This document shows positions 39,960-62,315 of a stretch of DNA of 64,000 bases, piece after piece. Source of the DNA: Devriesea agamarum (GTDB lineage Bacteria; Actinomycetota; Actinomycetes; Actinomycetales; Dermabacteraceae); assembly GCF_900070355.1 (NCBI RefSeq), contig NZ_LN849456.1, positions 2,232,001-2,296,000 on the forward strand. The letters are read 5' to 3'. The notes beneath the pieces were generated by a model that was given only the letters and a program-made list of their open reading frames with translations, ran no database searches and was not told the DNA's origin. Positions within the stretch are counted from its first letter, which is position 1, and every line of letters starts with the position of its first letter. Position numbers and translations under genes: made by a program.

Positions 39960-40666
39960 CGATCCTCGTCGTGATCCCCGCCCGCGGCGGGTCCAAGGGC
40001 ATACCCCGCAAAAACCTTCTGCCAGTTGGGGGTAGGCCCCTGATCGCATGGACGATCGAGCAGTGCCTAGCGGCGGCCCCAGCAAGTGATCTACTGGTCA
40101 CGGTCTCCACCGAAGACACCGAAATCGCGAACGTCGCCCGAGCCCACGGCGCGCATGTCATCCAACGCCCCGCCGACCTCGCGCAGGACACCACCCCGAC
40201 CGAACCGGTGATCCTGCACGCCATGGACGTGGCCGAATCTCAGGGCATCGACCTGGAAGCGGTCATGTTGCTGCAAGCCACCTCACCGGTGCGGCTTCCC
40301 GGAACCCTAGATCGGGCGGTAGCCCAATTCCGCGACACGGGCTGTGACAGTTTGGTCGGTGTGCTGCCAGAGTCGCCATTCTTCTGGCATCTGCCAGAGA
40401 GCGACGGTCAGCAGCCCCGCGCCGACTACGACTGGACGGCTCGACCGCGTCGCCAGGAACTCACCCCGCATCAGCTCACCTATTTCGAGAACGGCAGCCT
40501 GTATATCACCTCCCCCCGCATCTACCGCGAGCAGAAAAACAGGATCGGCGGCCAGATCTCGCTGTTCGTGCTGGATGAACTCGAAGGCGTCGACATTGAT
40601 ACCCCGGCGGATATCGCCGCCGCCGAACAAATGCTTGCTCGCACAGGATGGAACCCCGCCTCATGA
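39956..40666 (+). CDS. neuA: NeuA-type CMP-nonulosonate cytidylyltransferase
   Basis: 236 aa from GTG 39956, overlapping the previous stop. VIPARGGSKGIPRKNLLPVG is the CMP-sialic acid synthetase CTP-binding signature with Arg/Lys. VTVSTEDTEIANVARAHGA, QRPADLAQDTTPTEPVILHA and VMLLQATSPVR (Q-x-T-S-P) are all typical. ENGSLYITSPRIYRE and ELEGVDIDTPADIAAAEQML complete the fold, with the last Asp residues as metal ligands. The enzyme activates a nine-carbon acidic sugar (sialic, legionaminic or related) with CTP. Sequence alone does not decide which sugar. It overlaps the NeuB-type fusion gene downstream. Confidence 0.9.
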   Translation: MTILVVIPARGGSKGIPRKNLLPVGGRPLIAWTIEQCLAAAPASDLLVTVSTEDTEIANVARAHGAHVIQRPADLAQDTTPTEPVILHAMDVAESQGIDLEAVMLLQATSPVRLPGTLDRAVAQFRDTGCDSLVGVLPESPFFWHLPESDGQQPRADYDWTARPRRQELTPHQLTYFENGSLYITSPRIYREQKNRIGGQISLFVLDELEGVDIDTPADIAAAEQMLARTGWNPAS

Positions 40667-42912
40667 TTCTCGACCGCCAGATCGCCCCCTACACGGTGTC
40701 GGCTCAGGACACTGCGCTGCACGCATTGCGTCGCATCAATGAGAACCAGGCGCGGATTGTTTTCGTGGTCGACGAACATGGCACCGTTCAAGGCGCCCTC
40801 ACGGACGGCGACATGCGCCGCTGGCTCATCGCCCACGACCAACCGGATCTCTCCGCCCCCGCTCTGCAGATCGCTAATCGGTCGTTTGTGTCGGTGGCTG
40901 AAGGCACCCCGTTGGACGAGATGCAGGCCATGACGCGCCCGGGCCTGGATCGCATACCGGTGCTAGATGAGCGAGGCCGAATGGTCGCGGTCGCCACCAC
41001 GGAAAAGATGACGTTGCGAATCGGTCGCCACATCGTGGGTCCCGGCCACCGGTCCTTGCTGATCGCTGAAATCGGGAACAACCACCAAGGCGATGTCGAC
41101 CTCGCCAAGCGTCTGGTGGACCTCTGCGCGCAAGCGGGCGCGGACGTGGTCAAGTTCCAGCTGCGCGATATGGCAGCCCTGTATCGGTCCGGCGGTAGCT
41201 CCAGCTACGGAGAAGATCTCGGACCGCAATACACCATGAACCTGCTGGCAAAGTATTCGCTTAGCGCTGACGACATGCTGCGAGTGCTCGACCACTGCGC
41301 TGCCCGCGACATCGACGCGATCTGCACCCCCTGGGATATTCCGTCGGCCAATGTGCTCCATGACTACGGACTGCCAGGCTTTAAGATTGCCTCTGCCGAC
41401 CTCACTAACCATGAGCTGCTGCACCACGTTGCGGGAATGCATCGTCCGATGATTATTTCCACCGGGATGAGCACCGAAGCGGAAATCCGCGACTCCGTGA
41501 ACCTGGTGCGTTCGCACGGGGCACCGTATGCGCTGCTGCAATGCCAATCCACTTATCCTGCGCCGTACAAGGACGTTCACCTGCGGTACATGGACCGGCT
41601 GGCGCAGATCGGCGAGTGCCCGGTCGGCTATTCGGGCCACGAACGCGGCTGGCATGTGCCGATTGCTGCTGTCGCCCGCGGCGCCCACATCATCGAAAAG
41701 CACGTGACGGTCGATAAATCCCTCGAAGGCAACGACCATAAGGTGTCCCTGCTCCCAGACGAATTTGCCCAGATGGTGCAGCAGATCCGCGATGTGGAGC
41801 TGGCGCTGGGAAGTGACCGGCCCCGCGAAGTGACCACGGGTGAGCTGATGAACCGTGTGAACCTTGCGAAGTCCTTGGTCGCCACACGGGATCTTGCGCC
41901 GGGAGATGTGATCGCTGAAAGCGATGTGACGGTGAAAAGCCCTGGCCGTGGACTGCAACCGAACCGCCGCGCCGACCTGATCGGAAAGGTTGTGCACCGC
42001 ACGGTCGCAGCCGGGGACTTCTTCTATCCCGGCGATTTAGTCGGTGAAGCCAGCACCGTTCACGAGTACTCGTTTAAACGGCCGTGGGGTCTGCCCGTGC
42101 GCTACCACGATGTGCGCCCGCTGCTTGAGGTCAGTGCCCCAGACTTCCTGGAATTCCATTTCTCCTACCGCGACATGGAAGCGGACCCGCATGCGATCTT
42201 CGCCCCGGGAGAAAAACTTCCGCAATTCTTCACCACCCATGCGCCGGACCTGTACGCCGGGGATTTCCTGATCGACCTCGCCAGCCCCGACGAGGGAATC
42301 TGGGAACGGTCGATCCGCGAAGTGCAAAACGTCATCGACATTACCCGGCAGCTGCGTGAACACTTCACCTGCGAGCAGGACCCCGTAGTCGTAGTGACCA
42401 TGGGCGGTTTCTTGCCGGACCGGCATGTTTCGCTCGACGAGCGCTACCCCATGTACGAGCGCATCCAGCGAGGCTTGGAGCGCTTGGATGAGACGGGTGT
42501 GCGACTGACCGCCCAAACTTTGCCGCCGTTCCCGTGGCTGATGGGTGGCCAGCAGTTCCACAACCTGTTCATGGATCCCGAAGACACCGTGTGGTTCTGC
42601 GAGAAATATGGACGCCGCCTCACCTTCGACGTCTCCCATTCCAAGCTCGCCGCGAATTTCGCGGGCCGTCCGTTTAGCGAATACGTGGACTTAATGGGCC
42701 CCCACATTGAGCATCTGCACATTGTCGACGCCGTCGGTGTCGACGGTGAAGGTGTTCAGGTGGGCAACGGCGAAGTGGACTTCAGGGATCTAGCTGAGCG
42801 CCTGGCCGTCCATGCTCCTCACGCCTCCTTCATCCCCGAGATTTGGCAGGGTCACGTCAATAACGGCGAAGGTTTCTTTATCGCTCTCGACCGACTCCGG
42901 GCATGGCTGTGA
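40663..42912 (+). CDS. neuB: CBS-NeuB-SAF-TIM-barrel fusion: nonulosonic acid synthase with extra domains
   Basis: 749 aa from ATG 40663, overlapping the neuA stop (ATGA); an ATG 15 bp earlier is possible. Residues 1-120: a CBS-domain pair (TALHALRRINENQARIVFVV, ALTDGDMRRWL, RIPVLDERGRMVAVAT). Residues 128-385: NeuB barrel with LLIAEIGNNHQGDVDLAKRL, DVVKFQ, QCQSTYPAPY, YSGHERG (His326) and EGNDHKVSLLPDE (His359), the metal-site motifs. Residues 398-460: SAF/antifreeze-like domain (NRVNLAKSLVATRDLAPGDV). Residues 470-749: a xylose-isomerase-like TIM barrel with FDVSHSKLAANFAG, HLHIVDAVGVDGEG and FIPEIWQGH, positions expected for metal ligands. NeuB condenses an N-acylated six-carbon sugar with phosphoenolpyruvate. 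The C-terminal barrel may supply or modify the precursor; its reaction is unknown. Confidence 0.88.
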   Translation: MILDRQIAPYTVSAQDTALHALRRINENQARIVFVVDEHGTVQGALTDGDMRRWLIAHDQPDLSAPALQIANRSFVSVAEGTPLDEMQAMTRPGLDRIPVLDERGRMVAVATTEKMTLRIGRHIVGPGHRSLLIAEIGNNHQGDVDLAKRLVDLCAQAGADVVKFQLRDMAALYRSGGSSSYGEDLGPQYTMNLLAKYSLSADDMLRVLDHCAARDIDAICTPWDIPSANVLHDYGLPGFKIASADLTNHELLHHVAGMHRPMIISTGMSTEAEIRDSVNLVRSHGAPYALLQCQSTYPAPYKDVHLRYMDRLAQIGECPVGYSGHERGWHVPIAAVARGAHIIEKHVTVDKSLEGNDHKVSLLPDEFAQMVQQIRDVELALGSDRPREVTTGELMNRVNLAKSLVATRDLAPGDVIAESDVTVKSPGRGLQPNRRADLIGKVVHRTVAAGDFFYPGDLVGEASTVHEYSFKRPWGLPVRYHDVRPLLEVSAPDFLEFHFSYRDMEADPHAIFAPGEKLPQFFTTHAPDLYAGDFLIDLASPDEGIWERSIREVQNVIDITRQLREHFTCEQDPVVVVTMGGFLPDRHVSLDERYPMYERIQRGLERLDETGVRLTAQTLPPFPWLMGGQQFHNLFMDPEDTVWFCEKYGRRLTFDVSHSKLAANFAGRPFSEYVDLMGPHIEHLHIVDAVGVDGEGVQVGNGEVDFRDLAERLAVHAPHASFIPEIWQGHVNNGEGFFIALDRLRAWL

Positions 42913-54637: not shown

Positions 54638-54996
54638 CGTTCAATGGAGGTAAGTGCCTGAGACAGCACGTATGCCGCTCAAGCCTACGGTGCCTCGACG
54701 GATTTGTGCCCTGACTATCGCTTCTCCAGCAGTGTGATGATCTTCTCTATCGGGACATCTCGATGGTTCTAGCTATGGTGCGATTGGAGGAGTTGCTGGT
54801 GAAGGTGGAATTGCGTGTGAGTCGTCCTGCGTTTGGTGGCTTTTGGTGAGGTACATCCCACCCCAAATGCCGTGACAGCCGTATTGTTCATCACTATGAT
54901 GAAATTCGGGGTCAGGCCCTGTGCGGGATGCAGATTAATGCCGAGCGCACGCCGGTTCCTCATCATTTGTCTGCCTTCTCGACTCCAGGAGTCTTC
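54638..54996. promoter_or_regulatory. Divergent promoter region with a 7-bp-arm palindrome
   Basis: Between the (-) ABC exporter and the (+) sugar-phosphate transferase. TTCATCA (54887-54893) and TGATGAA (54897-54903) form a palindrome around CTA. No well-spaced -10/-35 pair is visible. The start of the (+) gene is chosen at GTG 54997 with SD CAGGAG at 54986-54991, although the frame is open back to 54928. Confidence 0.4.
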
Positions 54997-56511
54997 GTGG
55001 CCTTGGTTCATTCTGATCGGCACGTTGGCGTCGATCCCATGGTGCCTGCGATAGCTACGGGTCCGTTGCGCGGTCAACGTTTTCGGCGTCCCCGGCGCCA
55101 CTACCGGCGTCTTGTGTCATCGCTAGTTGTCGTTGGTGATGTTGCTGTTCTTGCGCTTGCGACCTGGTTTGGCAGCGAAGCACGAAGAGCTATCCCTGTT
55201 CTTGTTGATGCCCGAGATCTCGACGACGCGATCCGTCAAGCCAGTCTCGTCATTGCGGTGGCCTGGTTTGTATCCCTAGCTGTTTTCGGCGCCTATAGGA
55301 CGCGTCTTTTGACCCAGGGCACCGAAATGTACCGCAACGTGCTGCGCGCCAGCCTCACAGCCGCCGGGCTGATAGGGGTTGGCGCGTATCTTTTGCAGAT
55401 CCCGCTATCGCGCGGCTTCTTCGTGGCGATGGGGCTCTTTGCCCTGGTCGGTCTGCTGATATCGCGGTTTTTCGTGCGCCGGATCCTGCACCTGATGCAT
55501 CGACGCGGCATGTTGCTGGACCGAGTGCTGATGGTCGGATCGCTACACCATGTGGAGTCGGTTGCTGCAACGCTGACGCGTGAGTCCTGGTTGGGGTATC
55601 GGGTGGTCGGCGCCGTCGTGAACGCGCAGGATTTCAATGCAGCCGAAGAAACTGGAATCCAGATTCTCGGCGACCAAACCCAGCTCCATGATGTGATCAC
55701 TTCTGTGCGTCCTTCGGTGCTGGTCTTTACCGAAGGGGCTTCCCGCAGCACTGATGAATTTCGGCGCTTGGCGTGGGAATTGGAAGCGAGCGAGATTGAG
55801 ATGATCGTGGTCCCGTCGCTGTCGGAGATTTCCAGTGACCGGGTGTCGATGCGGCCGGTTGCGGGATTGCCCATCGTTCACCTTGAGCGGCCCCGCGCTG
55901 AAGCTGCCACCCGTTGGACCAAACGCATGGTCGATATCGCCGGGGCTGCCTGCATCCTTGCCTGCATCGCTCCTTTGATGGCGATAGTTGCCCTGTGGAT
56001 CCGGCTCCACGACCGGGGGTCGGTGCTGTTCCGGCAAACCAGAGTCGGTCGAGACGGCAAGGAATTTACCCTTCTGAAGTTCCGGACCATGGTTCCGGAT
56101 GCGGAACGAAAACTTGCCGAACTCACCCCGGGAACGGCCGACCGCGGAAACGTCATCATGTTCAAGATGTCCAAAGATCCGCGAGTCACCCGCCCGGGAG
56201 CGTTTTTGCGCCGCTACAGCATCGATGAATTGCCGCAGCTGTATAACGTGCTGCGTGGCGATATGAGCTTGATCGGGCCTAGACCTGCTTTACCCCGCGA
56301 AGTTGCTCGATATGACGAAATGGCGGTGCGGCGACTGTCGGTGCGTCCGGGAATTACCGGGCTCTGGCAGGTCTCCGGGCGCAGTGATCTATCCTGGCAG
56401 GAAACCGTGCGCTTGGATCTGTTTTACGTGGACAACTGGTCCTTGGTACAGGATGTAAGCATTTTACTGCGCACCGCGCGGGCTGTTCTCTCGCCTCGCG
56501 GGGCATACTGA
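54997..56511 (+). CDS. Polyprenyl-phosphate sugar-1-phosphate transferase (WbaP/WecA-unrelated, PglC-type)
   Basis: 504 aa from GTG 54997 (an ATG at 55039 is an alternative). Membrane helices occupy the N-terminal third, including LVVVGDVAVLALATWFGSEA and SRGFFVAMGLFALVGLLISR. A CoA-binding-like/Rossmann region follows (VLMVGSLHHVESVAATLTRE). The catalytic monotopic domain has KRMVDIAGAACILACIAPLM, LFRQTRVGRDGKEFTLLKFR, DELPQLYNVLRGDMSLIGPR and RPGITGLWQVSGRSDLSWQE. These are the marks of the initiating phosphoglycosyltransferase, which transfers a sugar-1-phosphate from a nucleotide sugar to undecaprenyl phosphate, the first step of glycan assembly. It is next to, and divergent from, the exporter. 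Confidence 0.93.
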   Translation: MALVHSDRHVGVDPMVPAIATGPLRGQRFRRPRRHYRRLVSSLVVVGDVAVLALATWFGSEARRAIPVLVDARDLDDAIRQASLVIAVAWFVSLAVFGAYRTRLLTQGTEMYRNVLRASLTAAGLIGVGAYLLQIPLSRGFFVAMGLFALVGLLISRFFVRRILHLMHRRGMLLDRVLMVGSLHHVESVAATLTRESWLGYRVVGAVVNAQDFNAAEETGIQILGDQTQLHDVITSVRPSVLVFTEGASRSTDEFRRLAWELEASEIEMIVVPSLSEISSDRVSMRPVAGLPIVHLERPRAEAATRWTKRMVDIAGAACILACIAPLMAIVALWIRLHDRGSVLFRQTRVGRDGKEFTLLKFRTMVPDAERKLAELTPGTADRGNVIMFKMSKDPRVTRPGAFLRRYSIDELPQLYNVLRGDMSLIGPRPALPREVARYDEMAVRRLSVRPGITGLWQVSGRSDLSWQETVRLDLFYVDNWSLVQDVSILLRTARAVLSPRGAY

Positions 56512-56514
56512 GAC

Positions 56515-57138
56515 GTGACGTCACGCCCCACTCATTTGGATAGCTCTGTGCCGCGGTCTCTGTGTGCGGTTGCCTATGCGGTGGCTGTGCTCAGCCTCGT
56601 GGCCGGAGGAGTTCTCGTTTTATGGCCTAGCGGTTGGGCCGTTAACCGTTTAGTGGTATTTCTCTACTACCGCGCTGTGCAACCGCTCGGTTTAGCGGAG
56701 ATGATTAGTCTCGACCGATTTGATGACCTGCTCAACGTGGCGCTCTTTGTTCCGCTGGTCGCGGCGTTAACCATTATTCGGCGGACGTGGTGGTGGGTTG
56801 TCGCCGGGGTGGTATTGAGTGGCGGTATTGAGCTTTTCCAAGCCCTAGTGATGACACAGCGGTATGGCACGGTGACCGACGTTATCTCCAATAGCTGCGG
56901 CGTTCTCATCGGCGCCCTGATCGGGCGTGGCATGTGGTGGATCGCTGTCAGCCGTGCCCGTCACACCCGTCACCGGGGCGGTATTCGCCAAGACGCCCGA
57001 GGTGTGACTAATCGTCCACACGACGCCGGTGATGCAGCAGAGACATCGCCGCACGTGGAAAACGCAAAAACCACTCCTGGATGCAATCCCGGAGGGTCGG
57101 CGTCCGCCCCAGGCGCAAACGCAGGTGATCGGGGTTGA
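56515..57138 (+). CDS. VanZ-like membrane protein
   Basis: 207 aa from GTG 56515, three bases after the previous stop and thus co-transcribed. Four hydrophobic helices. SLDRFDDLLNVALFVPLVAA (D-x-x-x-N-x-x-L-F-x-P, VanZ motif) and GGIELFQALVMTQRYGTVTD with VISNSCGVLIGALIG are characteristic. VanZ-family proteins confer low-level glycopeptide tolerance or act in envelope polymer handling. The last 44 codons (57008-57138) overlap antisense with the next (-) gene, and the tail is disordered (TPGCNPGGSASAPGANAGDR). Confidence 0.9.
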   Translation: MTSRPTHLDSSVPRSLCAVAYAVAVLSLVAGGVLVLWPSGWAVNRLVVFLYYRAVQPLGLAEMISLDRFDDLLNVALFVPLVAALTIIRRTWWWVVAGVVLSGGIELFQALVMTQRYGTVTDVISNSCGVLIGALIGRGMWWIAVSRARHTRHRGGIRQDARGVTNRPHDAGDAAETSPHVENAKTTPGCNPGGSASAPGANAGDRG

Positions 57139-57868
57139 CATGAAGCGCATCCCACAAAATCGCGGCGCGAGCACGGACCCCGCGTGCATCGCGGAACCGC
57201 GCACGCCACACCTCACCTGGGTCCTCTCCCGCAAGCACGGCCGTCCACAGATAGAAGCCGGGCTTACCGCGCATCGCAGGCAGGTTTCCGGTGGCAGCGG
57301 CAAACGGAACCTCACCGCCGAGATCGTGGGCGAGGCGGGTCAGATCCTCGCGTTTATCTGCCGACAGAATCTCCCAGGTGCGGTTGCGATCATGCCCAGA
57401 CTTGCCCATTGCATCCCGCGCCGAATGCAAAAGCAGCAGCAGACGCTGACCTCGCAGCGATGGCACCTCGATATCCCAGCCTGCCAGCGTGACTTTCTCC
57501 CGTTCCGCCCACAGCGTCTCGAAGGTGCGAACCGGATCCTGGTCGAGGCCCGGGAACGTGCGATGCACATCCACCGTGCCCCAGGTGCGGTGGTAAAACG
57601 TCGCGGCGTGATGGAACACCGAGCCATGCCGGAAGTGGGTGATCTGCTCCCAGTCATGCGCTATCAGGGTGCTAAGATACTGTTCGACGTCATGTGGGTG
57701 AATTATGACGTCGCAATCGCTGCTCGCAGGGCGTCCATCTGCAAGCTTGGGATGCAGAGCCACTCCTTTGATATGCAGAATGCGGGCGCCTGCCTCGCGT
57801 CCGATGAATTCAAGGCAGGCGTGCCCGAGCTCCAAAAGAGCCGGGATGGAAACCTGATCGATGGACAT
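57008..57868 (-). CDS. NTP_transf_5-family nucleotidyltransferase-like protein
   Basis: 286 aa from ATG 57868; a longer upstream frame lacks family features. HIKGVALHPKLADGRPASSD and CDVIIHPHDVEQYLSTL show the conserved K34-G35 and the metal D51-x-D53. A third acidic residue is in WGTVDVHRTFPGL (D100). VPSLRGQRLLLLLHSARDAM is the alpha-helical region typical of PF14907 (uncharacterised nucleotidyltransferase). Relatives often occur with PqqD-like proteins and HPr-kinase-like proteins in peptide-modification and polysaccharide loci. The function is not established. The end overlaps the VanZ-like gene by 131 bp, tail to tail. The opposite strand of 57008-57868 also shows an open frame, but it has no family signature. 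Confidence 0.82.
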   Translation of the reverse strand: MSIDQVSIPALLELGHACLEFIGREAGARILHIKGVALHPKLADGRPASSDCDVIIHPHDVEQYLSTLIAHDWEQITHFRHGSVFHHAATFYHRTWGTVDVHRTFPGLDQDPVRTFETLWAEREKVTLAGWDIEVPSLRGQRLLLLLHSARDAMGKSGHDRNRTWEILSADKREDLTRLAHDLGGEVPFAAATGNLPAMRGKPGFYLWTAVLAGEDPGEVWRARFRDARGVRARAAILWDALHVNPDHLRLRLGRTPTLRDCIQEWFLRFPRAAMSLLHHRRRVDD

Positions 57869-57977
57869 GTGACCATCGTAGGTGCATTGCGGACATCGGA
57901 CCGAACCAGGTCCGGATGGGCAGGCGCTCAGGACGGAACAGTACGTCCCTCGAGAACGACGATAAGGACACGACGAC

Positions 57978-59186
57978 ATGTGGATGCTTGAGGGGCGGCG
58001 CCAGTCCTATGCCTGGGGCTCGGTCGATGCGTTGCCGCGTCTCCTGGGGGTGGAGCCCGATCAGGATCCATTTGCTGAGATCTGGTTCGGTGCCCATCCC
58101 GTGGCGCCGGCACTAGTGCAGCGAGATGGCGGGCCGATCACGCTTGATGCGTTCATCCAATCCCAACCTCGGCGCGTGCTGGGGGATGCTTCACTGCGTA
58201 GATTCGGGCCCACACTGCCCTATCTGCTGAAGATGATTGCTCCGGCCAAACCTCTGTCGCTTCAGGTGCATCCGAGCCTGAACCATGCCCGGGAGTCCTA
58301 TGCTGCGGAAAACGCAGCCGGTATCGCGCTGGATGATCCGGCGCGCAACTATCGCGATGACAATCACAAGCCTGAAATGATTTTCGCCCTCAGCCGGTTC
58401 GAGGCTCTGTGCGGCTTTCGCACCCCTCGTCGCGCGGCATCCATCTTGGAGGGACTGGGCGTAGATCTCACAGATCGTTTGCACGCACTGCTGTGCTCGC
58501 AGCCGACGGCGACAGGTATGCGTGCGGCATTTCGGGCACTGCTGTCCCCGCACATTGAAGTCACACCCACGATGATTGAACAGGTGGTTGTCGCTTGCTC
58601 GCATCGCCTGTGCGAAGGCACGTCGCCGTCGCCCCGTATCGATGCGATTGTCGCTTCGCTGCACGAGCACCATCCGGGGGATCCCGGGGTGCTGACCGCC
58701 CTTCTACTGAATCCAGTCACGCTTGAGGCGGGGGAAGCGATGTTTGTTCCGGCGGGGGCTGTTCACTGTTACCTGAGCGGGCTCGCTGTGGAGATTATGG
58801 CTGCATCAGATAACGTGCTGCGAGCTGGGCTTACGCCCAAGCGGGTTGACGCGGACGAAATGCTGCGCTGCGTCAGTTGTGTGGCAGCTCCTCCCATGCG
58901 GGTGGCCGCTGAACGGGCTGTCGGCGGCACCGATGTGTTTTACGCACCGGTCGATGATTTTGAACTGTCGGTAACCCGGTTAGAAGGCGGCAGGTCATTT
59001 CAGCCGCGCACTCGGATTCCGGGGTCCGGGGCTCGGATCTTACTGGCGGTTGAGGGGGAGATCTTGGTGGAGACCGGAACGGGCCGCATGCTGGTGCGCG
59101 CGGGAGAAGCCGTGCTGGTCGCCGACGAGGATGGGGACGTGTGGGCTGGCGGTTGCGGGTGCGTGGTTCAGGGGGCGGTTCCGTGA
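57978..59186 (+). CDS. manA: Mannose-6-phosphate isomerase (class I)
   Basis: 402 aa from ATG 57978 with SD AAGGAC; a second ATG (MWM) follows at 57984. The cupin-type class I PMI is shown by KMIAPAKPLSLQVHPSLNHA with zinc ligand H in Q-V-H-P, DDNHKPEMIFAL, and FVPAGAVHCYLSGLAVEIMA with LRAGLTPKRVD. The enzyme interconverts fructose-6-phosphate and mannose-6-phosphate and feeds GDP-mannose and related sugar donors. It leads into the PqqD gene with a GTGA overlap, forming one transcription unit. The location in the glycan locus suits a role in supplying mannose units. Confidence 0.95.
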   Translation: MWMLEGRRQSYAWGSVDALPRLLGVEPDQDPFAEIWFGAHPVAPALVQRDGGPITLDAFIQSQPRRVLGDASLRRFGPTLPYLLKMIAPAKPLSLQVHPSLNHARESYAAENAAGIALDDPARNYRDDNHKPEMIFALSRFEALCGFRTPRRAASILEGLGVDLTDRLHALLCSQPTATGMRAAFRALLSPHIEVTPTMIEQVVVACSHRLCEGTSPSPRIDAIVASLHEHHPGDPGVLTALLLNPVTLEAGEAMFVPAGAVHCYLSGLAVEIMAASDNVLRAGLTPKRVDADEMLRCVSCVAAPPMRVAAERAVGGTDVFYAPVDDFELSVTRLEGGRSFQPRTRIPGSGARILLAVEGEILVETGTGRMLVRAGEAVLVADEDGDVWAGGCGCVVQGAVP

Positions 59187-59602
59187 CTCAGTCCCGCGTA
59201 GTGAACACTCCGGGTGGGTCGGGGTCATCGCCTGTATCGTCACGAAACATGGTGACACTTCACCCGTGGGTGGCTTTTACCGACGACGGCGAGGACTTAG
59301 CACTGGGCAGGATTCCGGATGGGCCCGTGGTGCGGGTATCTGGGCCCGTTGCCATCCTGTGCGATCTGCTGATCGCACGCCGAGAGCAGGAGGGCCCAGG
59401 TTTGCGCGTTGACGATCTGCTGACGGAAGTCCTCGAAAGCTACGATGATGTTCCCGATCAGGCGCGGGATCAGCTTCTTGGGCTGCTCAATGATCTGGTC
59501 GCTCACGGCTTTGTGGTGGTTAGCGATGGCATGTCCGCGAGTTCGGGGGAACGGGAGCACATCCGACCAGGACGACCCCAGCAGGAGCGACCTAGCCGAT
59601 GA
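59183..59602 (+). CDS. PqqD-like peptide chaperone-type protein
   Basis: 139 aa from GTG 59183, overlapping the manA stop. After a disordered leader, MVTLHPWVAFTDDGEDLALG starts a PqqD-like winged-helix fold, continuing VVRVSGPVAILCDLLIA, LLTEVLESYDDVPDQARDQL and LGLLNDLVAHGFVVVSD. PqqD-type RiPP recognition elements bind leader peptides in PQQ, lasso peptide and SPASM-type systems, but PqqD-fold proteins also occur in polysaccharide and cell-envelope loci. No precursor peptide is evident here. Coupled to the next gene by overlap (stop at 59602, start at 59599). Confidence 0.83.
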   Translation: MTQSRVVNTPGGSGSSPVSSRNMVTLHPWVAFTDDGEDLALGRIPDGPVVRVSGPVAILCDLLIARREQEGPGLRVDDLLTEVLESYDDVPDQARDQLLGLLNDLVAHGFVVVSDGMSASSGEREHIRPGRPQQERPSR

Positions 59603-61038
59603 ATCACTCTGACCAGGATCCACCGAGACATGGCTTCACAGGTGCCATTGATGCGCAAGGTGCTGTGCATATGCGGGGCGTTGAGTATCCCCAGTGCACT
59701 GGAGATACCCAGAGTGTGGGATCTTCCGATTCCCTGTCGCACCCGGATTACTTAGATATTGAAGCTGCTGGCTGCTGGGCGCGCATTAGATTGCCCGAGG
59801 ATGCTGATGCTAGAGCGCATTTGATCTCTCTATGGGGGCATCTGCGTGCCGCTGATTCGCCCGTGTGCCAAGGGCGGTTGGCGGGCGTTGAACAGCGGAT
59901 GTCTGCCGAACCTTCGATCGTGGTCGGTCCACCAACAAGTTTGGGGCCCGGTTACGACTTTGACCTATCGGGTCAGCTCACGCTGGAACTGCTGTGCCAC
60001 CTGGTGGGGTCGCGACTGCTGTTGCATGCCGGGGTGGTTGATGTCGATGATCTCGGTCCGGTGCTGCTGATCGGACCCTCAGGGGCGGGCAAATCGACCG
60101 CTACCATCGAGTTGGCTCGCCACGGACTTTACCTCACCGACGAAATGGCCTGCCTAGACCCGCGGACCCTCGCGGTTGAGGCCTATGCCAAACCGATATC
60201 TCGGGTGGTGAGTGAGGGACAACGACCTACGGATTCGATTCGTTCGCGCTACAAAGAAGACTTTGCGCCATCGGCGCTGGGCATGCGCGTCGGCGATCGA
60301 GCTAGTGCGCCGGTCGCGGTGGTGCTGCTGGAACGCAGTGACCATCACCAGGGGCCGCCCGTGCTCACGTCGGCCTCGTTGATGGAAGCGTTGCCCTTTA
60401 TCGTGAGCCAGTCCAGCTCGGTGTGGGCGCTGCCGGACGCGTTGCAGCTGCTAGTGCGATTGTGCCGGGGCCAGTTTGGGGTGCTCAAGGCGTCCTACCG
60501 GGAAGCTGGTGATCTGGTGACAGCGCTGCGCAGTTCCCTGACTGGCGCCCCGGAACAGATGTGGGAGCATCTGCCGCTCTCGCAGGCGGTGGGTGTGGCT
60601 GCGGGGCAGACGACGAAGAACTCAGGTGATTTTTCAGGCACGGTCTGCTCTGCACGCATGATCGAATCCGCACATGCGTTTGGCTTAGCGGGCACGATTG
60701 GCCCCGCCCATCCGGTCGAGCCCAGTGACTCAGGAACCGAGACCATTGAGGGTAAGGATTTAACCGGCTGCTCCTACCAGTTGCTTCCCTTTGCTGATGC
60801 GGGGCTCCTGCCGGAAGGGTTGATGATTTTGCGCGACAGTCAGGTCATCACCTTGAGCGGGGCTGGCGCTGCCGTGTGGCTATCCCTGTACGAAGATGGC
60901 GTGTTGTCCTATGCCCAGCTTTTAGAGTATGCGCTGAACTCCGGAGAAGACGTTCCTCCCGCCCTGATCGAGGACGGTCTGCGCACTGCGTTGAGCAGCC
61001 TCATTGGCAACCGGCTAGCGACGACTCTCCCCAGCTAA
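59599..61038 (+). CDS. HPr-kinase-like ATPase with C-terminal PqqD domain
   Basis: 479 aa from ATG 59599, overlapping the PqqD stop. A disordered first 45 residues precede a beta-rich part. The kinase-like core has PVLLIGPSGAGKSTATIELA (P-loop 159-167), then HGLYLTDEMACLDP (acidic T-D-E at 180-182), AKPISRVV and a Walker-B-like VAVVLLER. This is the HPr kinase/phosphorylase fold, seen in lasso-peptide kinases and in surface-polysaccharide-linked proteins of unknown role. The C-terminus (about 400-479) is a second PqqD-like domain: GLMILRDSQVITLSGAGAAV, LSYAQLLEYAL and ALSSLIGNRLAT. A kinase acting on a peptide, a sugar or an anchored acceptor is possible; the substrate is unknown. Confidence 0.8.
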   Translation: MNHSDQDPPRHGFTGAIDAQGAVHMRGVEYPQCTGDTQSVGSSDSLSHPDYLDIEAAGCWARIRLPEDADARAHLISLWGHLRAADSPVCQGRLAGVEQRMSAEPSIVVGPPTSLGPGYDFDLSGQLTLELLCHLVGSRLLLHAGVVDVDDLGPVLLIGPSGAGKSTATIELARHGLYLTDEMACLDPRTLAVEAYAKPISRVVSEGQRPTDSIRSRYKEDFAPSALGMRVGDRASAPVAVVLLERSDHHQGPPVLTSASLMEALPFIVSQSSSVWALPDALQLLVRLCRGQFGVLKASYREAGDLVTALRSSLTGAPEQMWEHLPLSQAVGVAAGQTTKNSGDFSGTVCSARMIESAHAFGLAGTIGPAHPVEPSDSGTETIEGKDLTGCSYQLLPFADAGLLPEGLMILRDSQVITLSGAGAAVWLSLYEDGVLSYAQLLEYALNSGEDVPPALIEDGLRTALSSLIGNRLATTLPS

Positions 61039-61147
61039 GGCACAGATACGGGCTGGCTGACAGAAACCCGGGGGAGTTGGGCGTAGGTCCGGGCGCAACT
61101 GGCTATACCAGAGCGGGGCAAGGGGCCGAGCGTTTCCGTGTGCATTG

Positions 61148-61211
61148 GGGGTGCAAGGCTCGTGGGGTGCAAGGCTCGTGGGGTGCAAGGTTTGCGGGGC
61201 GTAAGGCTTGC
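61148..61211. repeat. Four 16-bp tandem units in a convergent spacer
   Basis: Units start at 61148, 61164, 61180 and 61196 (consensus ggggtgcaaggctcgt). The first two are identical, the third and fourth diverge at several positions. They lie between the (+) kinase-like gene and the (-) MauE-Trx gene. No coding role is supported. Confidence 0.85.
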
Positions 61212-61235
61212 GGAGCGCCCTGGATCGGAGCGGTT

Positions 61236-61273
61236 TGCTCTGGTTACCCGGGAGTGCTCTGGTTACCCGGGAA
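61236..61273. repeat. 19-bp tandem duplication overlapping the MauE-Trx stop codon
   Basis: Bases 61236-61254 and 61255-61273 differ only at the last position (tgctctggttacccgggag/a). The minus-strand stop TAA (tta at 61263-61265) is contained in the second unit; the first unit is outside the gene. Confidence 0.85.
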
Positions 61274-62297
61274 TGCCCGGGGCCGAGGTGCTCTCCGACA
61301 GGTGCTCGGTCACCTCGGTGTGAATGTCGCGCACAAACTGAATAATCTGGTCGGGTCCGGATACTGGCCCACCGGCCAGCAGGCCATCAGCTCCTAACAA
61401 GACCGCTGAAGGTGCGCCGGGGTAGTCCATGACCAGTGACACGCTGTCGTTGTGGTCGAACAGGATGTTCGCATCCTCAATACCGTGGTCACGGATTTTT
61501 TGTATTCCGTCATCGTCCGAGGTGCCGAAAACCATGACTTTCACATCGAGAATGCTTGATAGTGAGCGGGTCCACTCGGGAACGAGGGGCAACACATCGT
61601 GGCAGTACCGGCACCAGGGCGTCACCATGACCAGCACGACGGCCCGTGTGCTGGCGAGCTGGCGAAGAGTCACATTCTCACCGGCAGACGTTGTGGCAAG
61701 ACCCATCGGGATGGGTGTGCGGAGGTAGTCGTCTTCAGCCGGGGATAAACCGGATGAGGGGGCAGCTGCTCGGCCCGGGCTGAGGATGAGCGACGCCAGC
61801 ACCCCGGCGGCGCACAGCGCGATCAGGCCCCATAGCGCAGACCATCCATGCTCAGACAAGTAGGACCATAGCCCGCCGCCAAGCGTAGATACCAGCGAAA
61901 AAACAAGGGCGAAGCCGAGCAGAAGAAGATTGCGGACTAGGGTGCGGACGGTGACCTGCATCGGGGCAAGCTTGCCGAAACAGCCACAGTCAACAGGATC
62001 ATCGAACCGCAGCGCCCGCGCGATGAGCACCGTATAGACCAGCATGAGGGCGACCGTTGCCCACGCCGCGGCGCGTCCGAGCATCCCCGCCGCACCTCCT
62101 AGGCCCGTGAGCGTCAACCCGATGGCGAGCAGAGCTTCGATGGTCGGCAGACACAGCGCCCACCAGGTTTTCTCGAACGGTCGGGGTAGACGCAGGTCAC
62201 GTGCGGCCCGACGGGTCCCAGGAACATCCAGGTATTTGGCGATGGCACTGACCGCCAGCACGGCAGTCAGCACGAACCAGCAGATCACGACGAACAT
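61263..62297 (-). CDS. MauE-like membrane protein fused to a thioredoxin-like domain
   Basis: 344 aa from ATG 62297 with SD AAAGGA about 9 nt upstream; a GTG at 62315 is in frame. Residues 1-175 have four to five helices of the MauE/DoxX type, with CGCFG (C104/C106) in DDPVDCGCFGKLAPMQVTVR. Residues about 185-344 are a thioredoxin-like (AhpC/TlpA) domain with the pair C229/C232 (VTPWCRYCHDVLPLVP) and cis-Pro region near YPGAPSAVLLG. MauE, TlpA-like and Trx functions are linked in methylamine dehydrogenase maturation and extracytoplasmic disulfide handling. Fusion is known in actinobacteria, but the partner here is unknown. It would shuttle electrons across the membrane to reduce a cell-surface protein disulfide. 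Confidence 0.88.
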   Translation of the reverse strand: MFVVICWFVLTAVLAVSAIAKYLDVPGTRRAARDLRLPRPFEKTWWALCLPTIEALLAIGLTLTGLGGAAGMLGRAAAWATVALMLVYTVLIARALRFDDPVDCGCFGKLAPMQVTVRTLVRNLLLLGFALVFSLVSTLGGGLWSYLSEHGWSALWGLIALCAAGVLASLILSPGRAAAPSSGLSPAEDDYLRTPIPMGLATTSAGENVTLRQLASTRAVVLVMVTPWCRYCHDVLPLVPEWTRSLSSILDVKVMVFGTSDDDGIQKIRDHGIEDANILFDHNDSVSLVMDYPGAPSAVLLGADGLLAGGPVSGPDQIIQFVRDIHTEVTEHLSESTSAPGIPG

Positions 62298-62315
62298 GCC
62301 AGGATTTCCTTTCAC

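Follow-up and report, generated by a model that had tools for sequence, protein, structure and literature searches.

The DNA considered here, referred to as the window, is a stretch of 64,000 nucleotides from Devriesea agamarum (Dermabacteraceae; contig NZ_LN849456.1, positions 2,232,001 to 2,296,000). It includes an exopolysaccharide (EPS) locus with genes for an HPr-kinase-like protein, PqqD-like domains of the leader-binding type, an NTP_transf_5 protein (NTP5) and a fusion of a MauE membrane domain with a thioredoxin-like domain (MauE-Trx). With a probability of roughly 0.55, the kinase, PqqD and NTP5 genes, together called the cassette below, are part of a leader-tag system of actinobacteria that serves exported proteins, is attached to polysaccharide loci and is so far undescribed. 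The genomic link between the cassette and the tagged proteins is well supported, and the chemistry that may act on these proteins is inferred by analogy.

The gene block and its protein families

The block starts with a polyprenyl-phosphate glycosylphosphotransferase, an EPS sugar transferase (PGT; 54928..56511, forward strand; TIGR03025 425 bits, cut-off 296), followed by a VanZ-like membrane protein (56515..57138, forward; PF04892 50 bits), and locus comparison finds both at the same places in homologous loci. The NTP5 gene (57008..57868, reverse) converges with the VanZ gene, their 3' ends overlapping by 131 bp, and diverges from manA, which encodes mannose-6-phosphate isomerase (57978..59186, forward; TIGR00218 217 bits, cut-off 116). 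Next come the free PqqD-like protein (59183..59602, forward) and HprK-PqqD (59599..61038, forward), in which an HPr-kinase-like domain (residues ~50-315) precedes a C-terminal PqqD domain (~385-479). MauE-Trx (61263..62315, reverse; PF07291 73.4 bits) is convergent with the kinase gene, and starts at 62297 and 62315 are both possible. As the pqqD start overlaps the manA stop (GTGA) and the hprK start likewise overlaps the pqqD stop (ATGA), manA-pqqD-hprK reads as one operon with manA first. An initial reading made from the letters alone, hereafter the sequence-only reading, had placed the NTP5, PqqD, kinase and MauE-Trx families here, and the open reading frames, Pfam and NCBIfam scores and conserved catalytic residues confirm that all four are present and intact.

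Within Dermabacteraceae, the order PGT, VanZ, NTP5 (reverse), manA, PqqD, HprK-PqqD and MauE-Trx (reverse) was found, with small changes, in 20 loci from 20 genomes. Among 297 genomes of the order, 51 encode both kinase and NTP5, 6 the kinase only and 1 NTP5 only (p 2e-49). Given this co-occurrence and the recurring gene order, the set is more than a chance assembly. Relatives named by a contig scan with the NTP5 alignment come from Brachybacterium, Dermabacter and other Dermabacteraceae, and the scan with the kinase sequence as query gave no confirmed relative. A low-molecular-weight phosphatase gene, separate and intact, often adjoins MauE-Trx in the family's blocks, and outside Dermabacteraceae the cassette often lies beside a chain-length/BY-kinase gene and glycosyltransferases.

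The HPr-kinase-like protein scores 20.2 bits in Pfam, below the cut-off of 33.3. The best NCBIfam matches of both the kinase and the free PqqD belong to the HPr-rel-A system, which likewise pairs an HPrK-related kinase with a PqqD-like protein: HprK_rel_A (TIGR04352) with an E-value of 1.4e-8 and a score of 34.1 against a curated cut-off of 200, and the PqqD peptide chaperone model TIGR04353 with 19.4 against 35. The window proteins differ from that system in scoring far under these cut-offs, and neither model names a substrate. Loss of the P-loop had been put forward as a sign that the kinase-like protein is inactive, yet the P-loop, GPSGAGKST, is intact, and H143, the P-loop lysine K165, D181-E182, K198-P199 and R246 are kept across 17 kinase relatives. 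A confident model (pLDDT 79) gives the kinase part an HprK/P-PEPCK-type fold. Foldseek with this model listed PEPCK and the HprK/P of L. casei, Coxiella and Mycoplasma; VIA-align returned PEPCK entries (Z 13-15) covering mostly residues 1-409, so the C-terminal PqqD is not covered, and HprK/P structures appeared in the Foldseek list only. A sequence search of solved structures with the kinase profile gave mainly other kinds of P-loop proteins.

The free PqqD (family alignment n=16) scores 20.5 bits against PF05402, just below the gathering cut-off of 23.4, and residues ~385-479 of the kinase protein gave no Pfam match. When these residues were compared with the free PqqD family by hhalign, the result was 96.9% (E 1.6e-10), against 0.1% for a control with the kinase part, and a confident domain model consists of strands followed by three helices. 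Both results uphold the second PqqD domain that the sequence-only reading had assigned to this protein. In family f10, the kinase (L104:10024-11418, L105, L106, L107, L108, L137) carries an extra N-terminal domain resembling a low-molecular-weight protein phosphatase, whose catalytic cysteine is apparently lost (VDSDNAGRS in L104 instead of VCTGNxCRS).

NTP5 scores 43.8 bits against PF14907, above the gathering cut-off of 31.2, and has a nucleotidyltransferase fold in which the acidic motif SxDxD and VDVHR are kept in 15 relatives. Foldseek with the NTP5 model found MenT1, LnuA and ANT(2'') and, lower down, the sugar-phosphate transferase FKRP; the solved-structure sequence search with the NTP5 profile gave no matches. 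In MauE-Trx (alignment n=16), CxCFG is conserved in the MauE domain and CxxC in the thioredoxin part, where the window protein has CRYC and most relatives CGPC; the C-terminal redoxin match is weak in the domain scan.

Exported proteins that share a leader

Homologous cassettes are adjoined by genes, single or in tandem arrays, for exported proteins of approximately 65-500 amino acids that share an N-terminal leader of the twin-arginine translocation (Tat) type, with the consensus SRRxxxKGAAWxxPx(8)PAxA(A)S, which contains the canonical Tat motif SRRxxxK. The sequence-only reading had named a conserved leader-bearing peptide gene in homologous loci as support; leader-bearing genes do occur beside the cassettes, but they encode proteins rather than short peptides. 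In ten tagged proteins, the leader matched no Pfam or NCBIfam model and the mature parts gave weak matches at most. The mature parts are rich in Thr, Ser, Gly and Ala, with a median of 168 residues, and neither LPXTG nor a hydrophobic C-terminal tail is present in any of 76 tagged proteins. A literature search limited to open-licence papers found no paper on the leader tag or the system.

The leaders were initially picked with a pattern that required RR, GxxWxxP and AxA but neither the second proline nor the serine. Among 76 signals with RR in place, the tryptophan is kept in 70, the first proline in 74 and the second in 73. In 69 of them the AxA site is followed by a serine, and the position directly before this serine is variable.

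Genes with this leader adjoin the cassette in many loci besides those of family f10. In its smallest forms they are interleaved with it, in the arrangements HprK-PqqD-tagged-NTP5 (L210, from a genome outside the order), HprK-tagged-NTP5-PqqD (L122) and NTP5-PqqD-tagged (L127). In L115 and L116, HprK-PqqD faces tagged-PqqD-NTP5, and in L104 and L108 tagged arrays come after HprK-PqqD. A typical locus of family f10 comprises NTP5, PqqD, a BY-kinase, the kinase with its fused phosphatase-like domain and a second PqqD, and continues with 2-6 secreted-protein genes, all with the leader form SRRRxxxGAAWATPAIxIATSxPAAAAS. In the window's own genome, tagged proteins are encoded at three places, 2.128, 1.579 and 0.915 Mb, with the leaders SRRTLAKGAMWAVPTVAIVTGSPAFAAS, KRRAFAKGAAWTVPVAALTSTAPAYAAS and SRRSIAKGVAWSVPTAIAISTAPAHAAS, each protein having two cysteines past the cleavage site. 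As all three genes lie outside the window, no likely substrate is seen in it.

In G034, the block appears to have decayed (L043, G034:C8:1005800-1025790), with only fragments of NTP5 and the kinase left and manA, PqqD and MauE-Trx kept; one tagged protein is still encoded. Besides its standard block (L042), G022 has a second, divergent HprK-NTP5-PqqD cluster (L039, G022:C1:1561500-1581490) that lacks PGT and manA and has its own tagged gene. Elsewhere in the window's polysaccharide locus, 40648-42912 encodes a protein of 754 amino acids that looks like a fusion of a CBS pair with a NeuB-type synthase, and similar proteins recur in homologous loci (L113, L124, L141, L213, L215).

Whole genomes were searched with an alignment of 29 leaders, and a strong match was found in 57 of the 297 genomes of the order. 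A strong NTP5 match was found in 52 genomes, every one of which has the leader, against 5 of the 245 without NTP5 (p 1e-52); with the window's own family left out, the leader is found in 40/40 genomes with NTP5 and in 2 of the rest. NTP5 occurs in eight families (f1, f6, f7, f10, f12, f13, f17, f19), and each of them includes genomes of both states. The kinase is sporadic in Dermabacteraceae (20/47 genomes), and there the leader is present in 20/20 kinase-positive and 4/27 kinase-negative genomes (p 1e-9), with 15/15 against 4/23 in the largest genus of the family. As a control, the comparison was confined to genomes that strongly match the EPS glycosyltransferase model TIGR03025, and the leader was found in all 20 that were kinase-positive and in none of the 8 that were kinase-negative (p 3e-7). 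Thus, the leader goes with the cassette rather than with the polysaccharide locus, and the co-occurrence is not explained by the EPS locus alone. In a class-wide draw, leader and cassette coincide outside the order too, mainly in families f45 and f38, and are physically adjacent in G395, G448, G522 and G482. Five genomes of family f17 (G147, G160, G199, G223, G274) have a kinase-like match with neither a strong NTP5 nor a tagged protein, and their kinase may belong to another system.

MauE-Trx tracks a different property of the tagged proteins, namely their cysteines. Its profile was searched in 36 genomes and the cysteines of the tagged proteins were counted: at least two occur in 42 of 64 proteins from genomes with MauE-Trx against 5 of 49 from genomes without it (p 1e-9) and, counted per genome, in 28/30 against 4/16, counts that take in a few short or secondary matches. 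The cysteine number is even in 41 of the 46 cysteine-containing tagged proteins from MauE-positive genomes. Strong MauE-Trx matches are also present in G011, G013 and G020, three kinase-negative genomes with tagged proteins. This covariation supports a disulfide role of MauE-Trx towards the tagged proteins, in keeping with the disulfide handling proposed in the sequence-only reading.

A possible modification before export and its alternatives

Since the presence of the cassette almost exactly tracks that of the tagged proteins, the cassette probably modifies them before export. A model for such a modification is found in the tailoring of lasso peptides, where the HPr-kinase homologues PadeK (paeninodin) and ThcoK phosphorylate the terminal serine of lasso precursors, and where in pseudomycoidin PsmK phosphorylates a serine and the attachment of one or two hexoses to this phosphate requires PsmN, which carries a nucleotidyltransferase annotation (PMC9266682, PMC8498205). 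The cassette resembles these pathways in combining an HPr-kinase homologue, an NTP_transf_5-type protein and a PqqD-type leader-binding domain, and in the proposed order of serine phosphorylation and then addition to the phosphate. It differs in that B2 protease and small precursor are missing, PqqD is both free and fused to the kinase, the proteins that appear to be the substrates are exported and begin with a Tat-type leader, and the setting is an EPS locus.

By analogy, the two PqqD domains would bind the leader in the cytoplasm, where the HPr-kinase-like domain could phosphorylate a serine of the tagged protein. The conserved serine just past the cleavage site would be the best single candidate for the phosphosite. 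NTP5 may then add a sugar, a sugar-phosphate or a nucleotide to the phosphate, as is thought for PsmN after PsmK. The Tat pathway carries folded, already modified proteins, and it could export the tagged protein in that state, with MauE-Trx setting disulfides where cysteines are present. The EPS setting suggests that the modification joins the tagged proteins to the surface polysaccharide or co-ordinates them with it. In its fullest form, it could be speculated that PqqD reads the Tat leader, the kinase phosphorylates the tagged protein and NTP5 builds on this phosphate a linkage of sugar or nucleotide type, by which the secreted proteins become covalently joined to exopolysaccharide through a phosphodiester, a proposal that is less probable than not. 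To our knowledge, no known sorting or glycosylation system works by such phosphodiester tagging. The suggestion in the sequence-only reading that two PqqD domains and a kinase act on an acceptor is thereby retained in part, as a leader-bearing acceptor does track the cassette, but this acceptor is a class of exported proteins and not a small peptide.

Several observations weigh against a leader-tag system of this kind. The existence of tagged proteins does not require kinase and NTP5: the kinase is missing in G011, G013, G020, G033 (family f1) and G143, and NTP5 in G011, G013, G020, G143 and G311, all of which encode tagged proteins. The conserved serine is kept also in tagged proteins seen from kinase-negative genomes and may thus serve something besides the kinase. 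The conservation of RR, GxxWxxP and AxA is partly built in, as these elements were used for selection. Because the genomes share ancestry, the p values overstate independence and are guides only; the agreement inside one genus and across eight families is the stronger argument. Finally, positive charges flank the CxCFG loop of MauE-Trx, a pattern that would place the cysteine loop and the thioredoxin part in the cytoplasm and fits poorly with extracellular oxidation.

The most serious alternative is that cassette and tagged proteins are co-inherited as parts of one surface-matrix programme, the kinase and NTP5 acting on another target, such as a sugar intermediate, a lipid-linked glycan or a regulator (the nearby BY-kinase or low-molecular-weight phosphatase). 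While less probable than not by a good distance, this would account for the occurrence of the cassette in EPS loci with PGT, chain-length/BY-kinase, phosphatase and glycosyltransferase genes, and for the N-terminal phosphatase-like domain of the f10 kinase. However, the ligands of PqqD-type domains are peptides and not sugars, the leader tracks NTP5 and the kinase rather than the EPS glycosyltransferase, and in minimal cassettes the tagged gene sits among the kinase, PqqD and NTP5 genes. It is improbable that the leader represents an ordinary Tat signal in a lineage-specific version and is linked to the cassette by shared ancestry only. The canonical SRRxxxK motif would fit this explanation, and an ordinary-Tat control set drawn from the loci gave only few sequences and was dropped; yet a single genus, and likewise each of eight families, includes both states, and in every case the leader goes with NTP5. 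In addition, the tagged genes are physically adjacent to the cassette, and the link is seen again outside the order.

The sequence-only reading had pointed to pathways for ribosomally synthesised and post-translationally modified peptides (RiPPs), and kinase, NTP_transf_5 and PqqD do all occur in phosphorylated or glycosylated lasso clusters. The lasso B2 leader peptidase (PF13471) is absent from the window's genome and from every kinase-positive genome of the family, its only occurrence in the 47 family genomes being in G009, which lacks the kinase. Among 14 small open reading frames outside genes in the block, conserved matches were found only where they overlap the end of the PGT gene, and no asparagine-synthetase-like cyclase was found among the ten region genes scanned, a genome-wide search not having been made. 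The missing B2 protease and the lack of a conserved small open reading frame rule out a lasso or other small-peptide cluster at this place, and a lasso-like pathway whose short precursor lies elsewhere or was overlooked is very unlikely, the more so as the tagged proteins already take the role of the leader-bearing substrate. Least probable of all is that the kinase has a housekeeping function in sugar regulation, as an HPr(Ser) kinase/phosphatase, and lies next to manA by chance. The fold is indeed shared with HprK/P and manA adjoins, but the score against TIGR00679 is 20.1 with a curated cut-off of 240, a PqqD domain is fused to the kinase, and the kinase is sporadic and inherited with NTP5 and the tagged proteins, so that model scores and distribution both disfavour it.

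Relation to known sorting systems and implications

The proposed leader-tag system may be compared with PEP-CTERM/exosortase (EpsH) and similar sorting systems, which were found by phylogenetic profiling (PMC1569441). Common to both are a sequence tag that many unrelated exported proteins carry, an association with EPS, and a sporadic distribution matched by one machinery, tag and machinery sharing a phylogenetic profile (here 52/52 against 5/245). Here, however, the tag is N-terminal and Tat-like, a C-terminal tripartite sorting signal is absent (0/76), and the machinery is actinobacterial and consists of a kinase, PqqD and a nucleotidyltransferase instead of a membrane protease/transpeptidase.

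With the leader-bearing proteins, uncharacterised NTP_transf_5, PqqD and HPr-kinase-like proteins encoded in polysaccharide loci of actinobacteria gain a concrete, testable partner, a class of exported proteins that is recognisable by sequence. If the proposed system is true, leader-guided modification of the RiPP type would not be confined to small peptides but would include whole secreted proteins, and for surface proteins that have neither LPXTG nor membrane anchors there would be a possible way of becoming attached to the cell-surface glycan.

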